Shown here piece by piece: positions 28,148 to 31,526 of a stretch of 64,000 bases of DNA; positions within the stretch are counted from its first letter, which is position 1, and each line of letters begins with the position of its first letter. This DNA is from Chryseobacterium sp. CY350 (GTDB lineage Bacteria > Bacteroidota > Bacteroidia > Flavobacteriales > Weeksellaceae). The stretch covers positions 2,170,001 through 2,234,000 of the forward strand of contig NZ_CP116034.1 of the NCBI RefSeq assembly GCF_027945075.1, given 5' to 3'. The position numbers were made by a program, and so were the translations under genes. Under the pieces are notes generated by a model. That model worked only from the letters and a program-made list of their open reading frames with translations, did no database searches and was not told where the DNA came from.

Positions 28148-28204
28148 TCTTAATGCATAATATCCCACGGCACAATCATTGTATTTTCTTTGAAAAGTAA
28201 GACA

Positions 28205-28990
28205 ATGAAAGCAATTTGGAACGGTGCCATTGGTTTTGGCCTAGTTAATATTCCTGTGAAGATTTATTCTGCGACGGAAACCAGCAAACTGGATCTTGAT
28301 ATGCTGGATAAATCTGATTTTTCAAATATAAAATTCAAGAGAGTTAACGAAAAAACAGGTAAGGAAGTCAAGTGGGCAAATATCGTAAAAGGTTATCTGA
28401 TGGACGATAAATACGTCATTCTTGAAGATGAAGATTATGAAGCCGCAAGTCCGGAGAAAACAAAAATTCTTTCTATAGAGCATTTCGTAAAAGAAGTAGA
28501 AGTAGATTCGGTCTATTTTGAAACTCCTTATTTTCTAGAGCCACAAAAAAATGGTGAAAATGCTTACCGTCTTTTAATCAAAGCATTGCAACAGACAAAA
28601 ATGGTAGGCATCGGGACGTTTGTTCTGCGTGATACCGAAGCAATTGGTATGATTCGACCGTACAGTGATGATGTTTTGGTTTTAAATAGACTGCGTTTTG
28701 ATCAGGAAATAAGAGATTACAAACAACTGAAAATTCCAGCCAAAAAAGCTCCGAAGCCCGCCGAACTCAAAATGGCGAAAAATCTGATCGAACAACTTTC
28801 AGAACCTTTTGACCCGAAATTCTACAAGAATACATATTCCGAAGAACTGCTTAAAATCATCAAGAAAAAAGCAAAAGGAAAATCTGTAAAACTCAAAAAA
28901 TCTGAGCCTGCAAAACAAGGTAAAGTGATCGACTTGATGGCACAATTAAAAGCCAGTCTGCAAACTCCGAAATCTAAAAATGCATCCTGA
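28205..28990 (+). CDS. ku: Ku protein for non-homologous end joining
   Basis: 261 residues. MKAIWNGAIGFGLVNIPVKIYSAT is the classic bacterial Ku N-terminus, and the core beta-barrel continues to about 200 with a Lys-rich C-terminal tail (KKKAKGKSVKLKKSEPAKQG). Ku homodimers bind double-strand DNA ends and recruit LigD. An in-frame TTG at 28190 would add five residues, but the ATG at 28205 fits the family exactly. The stop is 2 bp before the phosphoesterase gene, so ku and ligD form one operon. The expected TAnnTTTG box was not found immediately upstream. Confidence 0.95.
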   Translation: MKAIWNGAIGFGLVNIPVKIYSATETSKLDLDMLDKSDFSNIKFKRVNEKTGKEVKWANIVKGYLMDDKYVILEDEDYEAASPEKTKILSIEHFVKEVEVDSVYFETPYFLEPQKNGENAYRLLIKALQQTKMVGIGTFVLRDTEAIGMIRPYSDDVLVLNRLRFDQEIRDYKQLKIPAKKAPKPAELKMAKNLIEQLSEPFDPKFYKNTYSEELLKIIKKKAKGKSVKLKKSEPAKQGKVIDLMAQLKASLQTPKSKNAS

Positions 28991-28992
28991 TT

Positions 28993-29592
28993 ATGGCACT
29001 AAAAGATTATAACGACAAACGAAGATTCGACGAAACTACTGAACCTAAGGGAAAAACAAAAAAAAGTGAGGACAAACTTATTTTTGTGATTCAGAGACAT
29101 GCTGCATCAAGACTTCATTATGATTTTAGATTAGAAATGGAAGGAGTTTTGAAAAGTTGGGCCGTTCCTAAAGGTCCGTCTCTAAATCCTGATGACAAAA
29201 GACTTGCAATGATGGTTGAAGATCACCCTTACGATTATAAAGATTTTGAAGGAAATATACCAGAAGGTAATTACGGAGCTGGCCAGGTGGAAGTTTGGGA
29301 TAGTGGGACTTACGAGCCTTTGGACGATCAAAGTAAACTTTCTGATGAGAAAGAATTATTAAAAGAACTTAAAGCGGGTTCATTAAAATTCATATTGCAC
29401 GGAAAGAAATTAAAAGGTGAATTTGCTTTAGTGAAAATGAAAAATGCCGAAAATAATTCTTGGTTACTCATAAAACACAAAGACAAATATGCTTTAGAAA
29501 GCTATGACGCGGAAGAAAATACGGCAAAAAATTCGGAGGTAACGAAATTTTTAGAGGAAAAAAAAAGCCTAAAAAGCAGCAAAAAAAAGTAA
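28993..29592 (+). CDS. ligD: LigD 3'-phosphoesterase domain protein
   Basis: 199 residues. The phosphoesterase (PE) domain is recognised by FVIQRHAASRLHYDFRLEM, LKSWAVPKGPSLNP and EDHPYDYKDFEGNIPEGNYG, which contain the conserved His/Asp/Arg residues that trim 3' ends. In Pseudomonas LigD this is the first domain of one PE-ligase-polymerase chain; here it ends with a Lys-rich tail and a stop at 29590. The last codons contain A9 (29558-29566) and A8 (29581-29588). A -1 shift at either leads without interruption into the ligase frame, so this may be the first part of a frameshifted LigD. The start ATG is 2 bp after ku. Confidence 0.92.
   Translation: MALKDYNDKRRFDETTEPKGKTKKSEDKLIFVIQRHAASRLHYDFRLEMEGVLKSWAVPKGPSLNPDDKRLAMMVEDHPYDYKDFEGNIPEGNYGAGQVEVWDSGTYEPLDDQSKLSDEKELLKELKAGSLKFILHGKKLKGEFALVKMKNAENNSWLLIKHKDKYALESYDAEENTAKNSEVTKFLEEKKSLKSSKKK
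29558..29592 (+). promoter_or_regulatory. Candidate -1 frameshift or slippage site joining LigD parts
   Basis: Two A-runs: A9 at 29558-29566, read A_AAA_AAA in the upstream frame, and A8 plus G at 29581-29589, read A_AAA_AAG, followed directly by the TAA at 29590. A_AAA_AAG is the heptamer used in E. coli dnaX. Shifting -1 continues VNSDLKPQFQRFNSLVDEKK into the ligase domain. No strong downstream hairpin is obvious to me; AGAGGA at 29553-29558 is a weak Shine-Dalgarno-like element. Confidence 0.45.
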
Positions 29593-29630
29593 ATTCTGAT
29601 CTCAAACCACAATTTCAACGATTTAACTCT

Positions 29631-31526
29631 TTGGTAGACGAGAAAAAACTAAAGACTTTTATTAAACCAATGCTTGCTAAACCGCACGAGAAAGCGTTTG
29701 ACGATGAAGATTGGGTTTTTGAAATCAAGTGGGATGGTTATCGCGCGATTGCTGATCTAAGCAAAAAACAACCACTTTTCTATTCCCGAAACGGCATTTC
29801 TTTCTTATCAAAATTTGACAAAGTTTCTAATGATTTTGGAAATCAGAAGCATAAGATGATTCTTGATGGCGAAATTGTTGCCTTTGATGAAAATGGAAAA
29901 CCGAGCTTTCAGATGCTTCAACAAATTGGCGATAATCCTGATCTCGCTTTAGTGTATCAGGTTTTTGACCTGCTCTGGCTCAATGGTCATTCTACGGAAG
30001 AGCTTCCGCTTTTACAAAGAAAAGAACTTTTAAAAGATGCTTTAGTAGAAACTGATGTCATTAAATACTGTGATCATATCCCGGAAAAAGGTATTGAATT
30101 TTTTGATCAGATGAAGGAAATGCAACTCGAAGGAATGATCGCCAAAAAAGCTGACAGCCAGTATCTTGAAAACAGCAGAAGTACAGATTGGCTTAAAATA
30201 AAATTCACCAACACAGAAGAAGTTATCATTTGTGGATTTACAGAGCCGCGTGGCTCGCGGGAAGGTTTTGGAGCACTAATTTTAGGGAAATATATTGACG
30301 AAAAACTCACCTATTCAGGACACACAGGAACAGGATTTAATAATGAATCTTTACACGCTCTCCATCAAAGACTTCTAAAGTTGGTAACAAAAAACTCTCC
30401 CTTTGAAGAGACACCTAAGACCAATATGCCGGTAACCTGGATAAAACCGGAATTAGTTTGTGAAATAAAATACTCTGAAATTACGAATGATGGAATTTTC
30501 CGTCATCCCGTTTTTGTTGCAGTACGCGAAGACAAAAACCCTGAAGAAGTAAACGAAAAACCTAAAGAAATGAAAGCTAAGATTCAACCAAAGAAAAATG
30601 AAATCTCTGAAAATGATACAGAAATTACATTGAACCGCCATAAGGTAAAACTTACCAATCAAAACAAAATTTATTTTCCGAAAGATGGCGTTACAAAAGG
30701 CGAAATTATAGATTATTATCAATCTGTAGCAGACTATATTTTGCCTCATCTAAAAAATCGTCCGCTTTCTCTCAATCGTTTTCCGAACGGAATTGATCAT
30801 CAGAGTTTTTATCAAAAAGATGCGAGTGACAACATTCCAGAATGGATAAAAACGACGGAGGTTTACTCAGAATCTAATGATAAGTACATCGATTATATTT
30901 ACTGTAATGACAAAGCAACTTTGGCTTATCTGAACAATTTGGGTTGTATTGATCTCAATCCCTGGAACAGCTCACTGCCTGATTTGGATCATCCTGATTT
31001 TATGGTTTTAGATCTCGATCCCTCGAAGAAAAATAGTTTTGATGATGTGATTGAAACCGCTTTGCAAGTGAACGAGGTTTTAAATTCTATCAAAATTAAA
31101 GGATATTGTAAGACTTCCGGGAGTACAGGAATTCATGTTTACATTCCGATGGGCGGAAAATACGATTTTGATCAGGTAAAAGATTTCGCACATATTTTAA
31201 TGAAACAAGTCAATGAAAAGTTGCCGAAAATCACCACTTTAGAAAGAAGTCTGCAAAAAAGAGATGATAAAAAAATCTATCTCGATTATCTTCAAAACAG
31301 AACCGGACAAACTTTGGCAAGCGTATACAGTATAAGACCAAAAGATGGAGCCTCTGTCTCAATGCCTTTAGAATGGGATGAAGTTAAAAAGGGATTGAAG
31401 CCGACTGATTTCAATATTGAAAATGCTCTCGAAAGAATAAAAGCGAAGGGAGATTTGTTTAAACCGGTTTTAGGAAAGGGGATTGATATGATGAAGGCGT
31501 TGGAATTATTGCAGGATGAAGAGTAA
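29631..31526 (+). CDS. ligD: LigD ATP-dependent DNA ligase and polymerase domains
   Basis: 631 residues from a TTG codon. The ligase domain comes first: PMLAKP, then the adenylation motif FEIKWDGYRA with nucleophile K33, LDGEIVAFD, EGMIAKKADS and WLKIK. After a charged linker (about 310-340) comes the primase-like polymerase domain (EITLNRHKVKLTNQNKIYFP onward) with its metal site in FMVLDLDPS. It fills and seals ends held by Ku. The frame has no ATG or GTG before the conserved PMLA motif and is open upstream across the end of the PE gene, so independent initiation at TTG is doubtful. Fusion by -1 shift would give a PE-ligase-polymerase chain of about 840 residues, the usual LigD size. Confidence 0.92.
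   Translation: MVDEKKLKTFIKPMLAKPHEKAFDDEDWVFEIKWDGYRAIADLSKKQPLFYSRNGISFLSKFDKVSNDFGNQKHKMILDGEIVAFDENGKPSFQMLQQIGDNPDLALVYQVFDLLWLNGHSTEELPLLQRKELLKDALVETDVIKYCDHIPEKGIEFFDQMKEMQLEGMIAKKADSQYLENSRSTDWLKIKFTNTEEVIICGFTEPRGSREGFGALILGKYIDEKLTYSGHTGTGFNNESLHALHQRLLKLVTKNSPFEETPKTNMPVTWIKPELVCEIKYSEITNDGIFRHPVFVAVREDKNPEEVNEKPKEMKAKIQPKKNEISENDTEITLNRHKVKLTNQNKIYFPKDGVTKGEIIDYYQSVADYILPHLKNRPLSLNRFPNGIDHQSFYQKDASDNIPEWIKTTEVYSESNDKYIDYIYCNDKATLAYLNNLGCIDLNPWNSSLPDLDHPDFMVLDLDPSKKNSFDDVIETALQVNEVLNSIKIKGYCKTSGSTGIHVYIPMGGKYDFDQVKDFAHILMKQVNEKLPKITTLERSLQKRDDKKIYLDYLQNRTGQTLASVYSIRPKDGASVSMPLEWDEVKKGLKPTDFNIENALERIKAKGDLFKPVLGKGIDMMKALELLQDEE

Follow-up and report, generated by a model that had tools for sequence, protein, structure and literature searches.

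The ligD gene of Chryseobacterium sp. CY350 probably gives rise to two proteins by slippage of RNA polymerase on a run of nine adenines. In the window, by which we mean the whole 64,000-nucleotide stretch of this genome that was analysed, ligD is written in two reading frames. Messages that keep the nine adenines (A9) would yield a free 199-residue 3′-phosphoesterase (PE) that ends at 29592. RNA polymerase slipping on the A9 run (29558-29566) would provide a fraction of the mRNAs with one extra A, and in these the ligase (LIG) and polymerase (POL) would come into frame, giving an 844-residue PE-LIG-POL LigD. We regard this statement as a whole, with slippage at A9, RNA polymerase as its agent and two products, as probable. 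Recoding at the A9 run, whichever the agent, is very likely from the sequence comparisons, and on the question of the agent the evidence leans towards RNA polymerase rather than the ribosome. The occurrence of slippage, its agent, its rate and the use of both proteins are what we infer from these comparisons. The features of the locus are the following, all on the forward strand:

28190 to 28990, forward: ku gene (Ku_bact; PF02735, TIGR02772), immediately 5′ of ligD, with a TTG start
28993 to 29592, forward: ligD frame 0, 3′-phosphoesterase (PE) of 199 aa, the whole domain plus a Lys-rich tail (PF13298, TIGR02777)
29508 to 31526, forward: ligD frame −1, ligase and polymerase (ORF, Pfam/NCBIfam)
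29554 to 29568, forward: element GAGGAAAAAAAAAGC surrounding the putative slip site, which we call invariant (GAG in 133/133 Glu codons; 15-mer in 105/148 genus genomes)
29558 to 29566, forward: A9 run, the proposed slip site (A9 in 138 or A10 in 30 of 168/168 split genes)
29583 to 29589, forward: A_AAA_AAG heptamer (in frame in 63/168 split genes)
29590 to 29592, forward: PE stop TAA, 23 nt 3′ of A9, an early and conserved stop (20-29 nt after the run in 136/136 main-clade genes)
29631 to 29633, forward: TTG, the sole one in the LIG frame ahead of the PMLA Met at 29670 (start-codon scan)

The PE ORF (28993-29592) ends with AGC AAA AAA AAG TAA and matches PF13298 and TIGR02777 over residues 3-165 (Pfam, NCBIfam); the closest solved chains are LigD phosphoesterase-type proteins, for example 2lj6. 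It is the only PE match in the genome, which consists of one 4.09-Mb contig. The second frame, at −1 relative to PE and open from 29508 to 31526, encodes a DNA ligase and a LigD Prim-Pol, so that the LigD domain set of PE, LIG and POL, with ku nearby, is complete at this locus (Pfam, NCBIfam). Upstream of the PMLA Met at 29670 the LIG-POL frame harbours no ATG or GTG, and the TTG at 29631 is the sole candidate start. Two A runs precede the PE stop, namely the A9 run within GAG GAA AAA AAA AGC and an A8 at 29581-29588 that is followed by G. All features listed in the preliminary description of this locus (the ORF ends, the A_AAA_AAG, the second A9 run, the −1 frame, the missing ATG and GTG, and the TTG at 29631) were present. 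Read with one added base, PE-LIG-POL is 844 aa long, close to the open frames of fused relatives (845-857 aa among the matches listed). The enzyme resembles the Pseudomonas-type LigD in having PE, LIG and POL in the same order, here adjoining ku (TIGR/NCBIfam models), but differs from it in being encoded in two frames.

Furthermore, we compared the ligD loci of relatives from Chryseobacterium and related genera among the matches listed, a set that takes in the weaker family members only in part. In total, 280 loci had PE and LIG together (the window included), and these represent 208 distinct junctions. Twelve loci were left out: L080 (partial), L207 and L208 (no PE match reached) and L255-L263 (other ligases or a fragment). 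LIG was split off at −1 in 168 junctions, fused in 39 and odd in one. The split ones comprise 72 from named records, 95 from a second set of genomes, and the window; since a species may be represented by different strains in the two sets, these are 168 sequences rather than 168 species; the 39 fused ones include the distant paralogues L206, L292 and L293, and also L081. Among the split genes are those of C. soldanellicola and C. indologenes CI_885; fused ones were found in C. edaphi, C. carnipullorum, C. luteum and three Kaistella. In the odd junction, L212 from the Chryseobacterium genome G170, the run is A8 and LIG lies at +1; this may be a sequencing error, a lesion or a case served solely by RNA polymerase slippage. 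Edaphocola flava (L063), which belongs to another family, the Chitinophagaceae, has a ligD that is split likewise and shares about 70% identity with Chryseobacterium ligD, possibly owing to horizontal transfer.

The preliminary description had left room for a recent indel or a sequencing error, and both are ruled out, as the same split recurs in 168 of the 208 distinct junctions. The alignment with other Chryseobacterium ligD genes that it proposed shows a conserved split and favours recoding. The split is real and looks selected, and is explained by neither damage to the gene nor an error of sequencing, and the idea of a recoded gene that makes a free PE and a fused PE-LIG-POL enzyme looks right.

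On a FastTree phylogeny treekit gave 18 changes between the split and fused states without L212, and our own count gave 19 with L212 as a third state. The Chryseobacterium clade of this tree (143 tips) holds 137 split genes, five fused ones and the odd one. It needs six state changes, so the five fusions look independent. Three of these five fused genes have A10 at the same run and are thereby in frame, whereas in the other two the run is still A9 and a downstream length change has fused the frames. Elsewhere, the fused genes L198, L200, L242 and L248 have A11, and their nearest split genes A10. The fused A10 genes L002, L053 and L128 retain the codon whose wobble A makes the short-frame stop, so that slippage there could still yield the short form. 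Fused relatives with no slippery run had been named beforehand as evidence against recoding; within Chryseobacterium there are none, since 5/5 fused genes keep A9 or A10, but several fused genes of the Kaistella group do lack a long run. In that group fused and split ligD genes are also neighbours among near relatives (L276/L275; L268/L214), and the split ones have A9 or A10.

Next we considered whether the second frame could be translated from a start of its own. In the LIG frame, the stretch from the last in-frame stop up to the PMLA Met has an ATG in 0/168 split genes; 155/168 have neither ATG nor GTG, and 134/168 have no ATG, GTG or TTG. Substitution patterns were compared in two groups (51 and 60 gap-free sequences of a 131-sequence set; 200 and 348 pairs). 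From the PE stop to the PMLA Met, pN/pS in the LIG frame was 0.133 and 0.125, as in the 60 nt after that Met, and in the PE frame it was 1.7 and 2.6. Upstream of the PE stop (−87 to −15) the PE-frame ratio was 0.21 and 0.15. In the stretch from the run to the stop, the ratios were 0.45 and 0.47 for PE and 0.49 and 0.33 for LIG, and pS was lowered; both frames are constrained there, as expected of dual coding. The frame-wise pattern along the junction thus places the change of frame around the run. Moreover, these ratios indicate purifying selection on the start-less stretch before the PMLA Met when it is read in the LIG frame. Two separate proteins, with LIG-POL starting by itself at the PMLA Met or at a non-standard codon, coupled to the PE stop, are therefore a most improbable reading: the stretch before the Met is conserved as LIG-frame protein to the same degree as the ligase itself, and 134/168 genes offer no start codon within it. 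The Met at 29670 is indeed ATG in 135/136 main-clade genes, and TTG or GTG is present in some species (34/168), but a separate start leaves both the A9 or A10 in 168/168 split genes and the one-A fusions without a reason.

The element that all split genes share is the run. An uninterrupted A9 (138) or A10 (30) was found in 168/168, that is, a conserved homopolymer of at least about 8-9 nucleotides; in the main clade A9 occurs in 133/136 and A10 in 3/136. The longest run in the 39 fused genes varies from A5 to A11, and we counted this freedom from a pure A9 or A10 in favour of slippage at the run in split genes. Runs of this length are rare in comparable coding sequence: other ORFs of 150 aa or more from 80 loci, the window included, add up to 325,443 nt and hold seven A runs of at least nine (six A9 and one A10), plus one T9. 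Counting both strands and non-coding DNA, there are 217 exact A9 in the CY350 genome as a whole. The 15-mer GAGGAAAAAAAAAGC was found in 105 of 148 genus genomes (one per species), at 108 sites altogether, and its reversed reading in 1/148. Eleven of the 108 sites were compared by eye with the matches listed, and each is followed closely by a ligD match.

The run is also pure at the codon level. In-frame Lys codons within it are AAA in 368/368 cases over the 168 split genes, and both run Lys codons are AAA in 136/136 main-clade genes; the average share of AAG in the main clade is 15% across 24 conserved Lys columns, among them those of the run. AAG is likewise absent from two other Lys columns: that of residue 4 lies near the start codon and that of residue 194 in the dual-coded stretch. 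Part of the purity of the run stems from amino-acid and dual-frame constraint. PE Lys codon 4 (29002-29004) is AAA in 127/127 main-clade genes, perhaps through avoidance of G near the start codon. The Glu codon before the run (29554-29556) is GAG in 133/133 main-clade split genes, in contrast to 13 other Glu columns with 73-93% GAA, and neither run length nor dual coding accounts for this constraint.

The distant A10 genes narrow down the site. In 26/27 a stop made of the first two As of the run and the T ahead of them closes the LIG frame, and in 25/27 PE terminates 17 nt past the run; in these genes the shift must therefore lie inside the run or just after it. As the slip site, the preliminary description had singled out the A_AAA_AAG beside the PE stop. 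Between run and stop, this heptamer is in frame in just 63/168 split genes (63/136 in the main clade and 0/32 of the more distant ones), and it was rejected as the shared element.

Another reading is switching at the DNA level, in which the run would toggle between A9 and A10 within a population and cells would be fused or split. Replication tends to slip on A runs, and A9/A10 and A10/A11 differ among related species. However, more variation would be expected of a switching tract than 133 A9 and three A10 among 136 main-clade genes, and the split state greatly predominates in the clade, with 137 of its 143 tips split, five fused and one odd, so we consider phase variation very unlikely.

If the slip were accidental and merely rescued an old tolerated frameshift, the short PE would be a useless by-product. 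Slippage rescue of frameshifted genes is known in insect endosymbionts, and fusions have arisen repeatedly, five of them in the 143-tip Chryseobacterium clade. The early PE stop argues against this. It is built with the wobble A of a LIG-frame codon, and the aligned column has ATA for 106/110 Ile codons and GTA for 13/13 Val codons, although ATA accounts for just 14% of Ile codons across the LIG body (633 of 4,434). LIG codons directly over the stop end in A in 134/136 and in G in two, a count that is conditioned on the stop, as the aligned column is not. When codons were redrawn according to usage for an unchanged LIG protein, the expected frequency of a stop within 29 nt averaged 47% (8.5%-89% by gene); such a stop was observed in 136/136, counts that are not independent trials because the genes are related. 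LIG-frame synonymous sites in the region of the PE stop are near saturation (pS 0.66 and 0.69). This codon choice indicates that the early PE stop, and hence the short product, is selected, and it makes an accidental rescue scarcely credible.

The serious competitor to RNA polymerase is the ribosome. The same products would come from programmed −1 ribosomal frameshifting at the A_AAA_AAA of this run, perhaps aided by an A_AAG near the stop and a GAGG ahead; we hold this to be unlikely, yet it has several points in its favour. The direction is constant, with −1 against +1 at 168 to 1, and an A_AAA_AAA heptamer lies within the run in 168/168 split genes, as it must because the run is A9 or A10. 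An in-frame A_AAG, described in a passage of PMC4066793 as the best tetramer in E. coli, occurs between run and stop in 126/168 (124 in the main clade and two others). For 30 of the 136 main-clade sequences, the mean folding z after the run was slightly lower (−0.66 and −0.74) than that of the control (−0.10). On the other hand, this is a weak signal of conserved RNA structure in the 30 sequences folded, the z values of the window itself were +0.76 and +0.65, and no stimulator was found. LIG-frame pS after the stop is not lowered (0.66 and 0.69, compared to 0.54 and 0.44 after the Met). An AAG at the last position is allowed or even better in E. coli, yet the runs have none. The GAGG lies 2 nt ahead of the first in-run codon, which is too close; the spacing of an upstream Shine-Dalgarno sequence that stimulates −1 frameshifting is roughly 10 nt. 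We also counted against the ribosome that those of the Bacteroidia are said, in a passage of PMC9976891, not to recognise Shine-Dalgarno sequences.

RNA polymerase is preferred because of the purity of the run and its length beyond a heptamer, the lack of AAG, the lack of a fitting stimulator, and the insertion bias of the enzyme. According to a passage of PMC6260861, E. coli RNA polymerase inserts about threefold more often than it deletes, which fits a gene that is one A short, and a passage of PMC1088944 states that a 9A run whose length is conserved in homologues very likely serves purposeful transcriptional slippage. Against it we counted that the same part of PMC6260861 has E. coli RNA polymerase slipping less on A than on T runs, and that 168 split genes shift by −1 and a single gene by +1 (the A8 gene L212, possibly an error); section 10 of PMC3711429 takes an unvarying direction to point to ribosomal frameshifting. 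The GAG ahead of the run, which run length leaves unaccounted for, and the part of the run's purity owed to amino-acid and dual-frame constraint count against it too. The earlier suggestion of ribosomal frameshifting or transcriptional slippage looks right as to recoding, which we place at the A9 or A10 run (168/168), while its dnaX-type ribosomal route is the less favoured of the two.

Two systems are the nearest precedents. In the relevant passages of PMC4256274, tssM1 of Citrobacter rodentium has an A11 28 nt before a stop and 20-25% transcriptional slippage, and both its forms are reported as needed. It shares with ligD an A-run about 25 nt before the short-form stop and slippage that gives the long form; it differs in being another gene and in having A11 instead of A9 or A10, slippage is proven there and inferred here, and the ligD run is conserved over many species. 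The dnaX gene of Thermus thermophilus, as treated in part of PMC1088944, is likewise a gene of DNA metabolism with an A9 and two product lengths, slippage accounting for about half the product. There standard reading gives the long form and slippage the short one, the reverse of ligD except in its fused relatives. Escherichia coli dnaX, with −1 ribosomal frameshifting on A_AAA_AAG (passages of PMC3711429 and PMC1088944), resembles the window in the heptamer and the −1 direction, but in ligD the heptamer is found in 63/168 relatives only and no fitting stimulators were found. No report of ligD frameshifting or slippage was found in the main texts of open-licence papers (for PMC5009743, in its first 300,000 characters); a cluster in the supplements of PMC3711429 or in the GeneTack database might hold the gene. 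The passages on Bacteroidetes in PMC7719229 make no mention of a ligD split.

If our reading is right, annotation would present a repair enzyme of over a hundred species as two genes, although its full form depends on slippage. Recoding would then be deeply conserved in a gene that sits on the chromosome and not on a mobile element, and this in bacteria with ribosomes said to disregard Shine-Dalgarno sequences. The free phosphoesterase would be a wanted product of end joining. The natural series of A9, A10 and A11 genes offers material to tell slippage by RNA polymerase from that by the ribosome.

A GG before and a G after a 9-nt run resemble the elemental pause signal, and we take this likeness as a lead. 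The −11 and −10 positions are mentioned with regard to pausing in a passage of PMC6336406. More tentatively, GG-A9-G, which we call invariant, might be a dedicated RNA-polymerase slippage cassette, in which an all-A-T RNA-DNA hybrid framed by pause-type Gs would set the ratio of PE to LigD. Single-A changes in the DNA would then swap the default product in evolution, and end joining would depend on a programmed transcription error; we find this possible but doubtful.

Some genomes have more than one ligD-like gene. L202 (G122:C1:2918129-2919481) is a second ligD copy that matches query residues 2-452 only and has an internal TAA; the same genome also has an apparently whole copy, and the 15-mer is found in both. 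Further LigD paralogues, in G009, G042, G073 and others, are 45-50% identical and mostly a single open frame of 900-930 aa among the matches listed.
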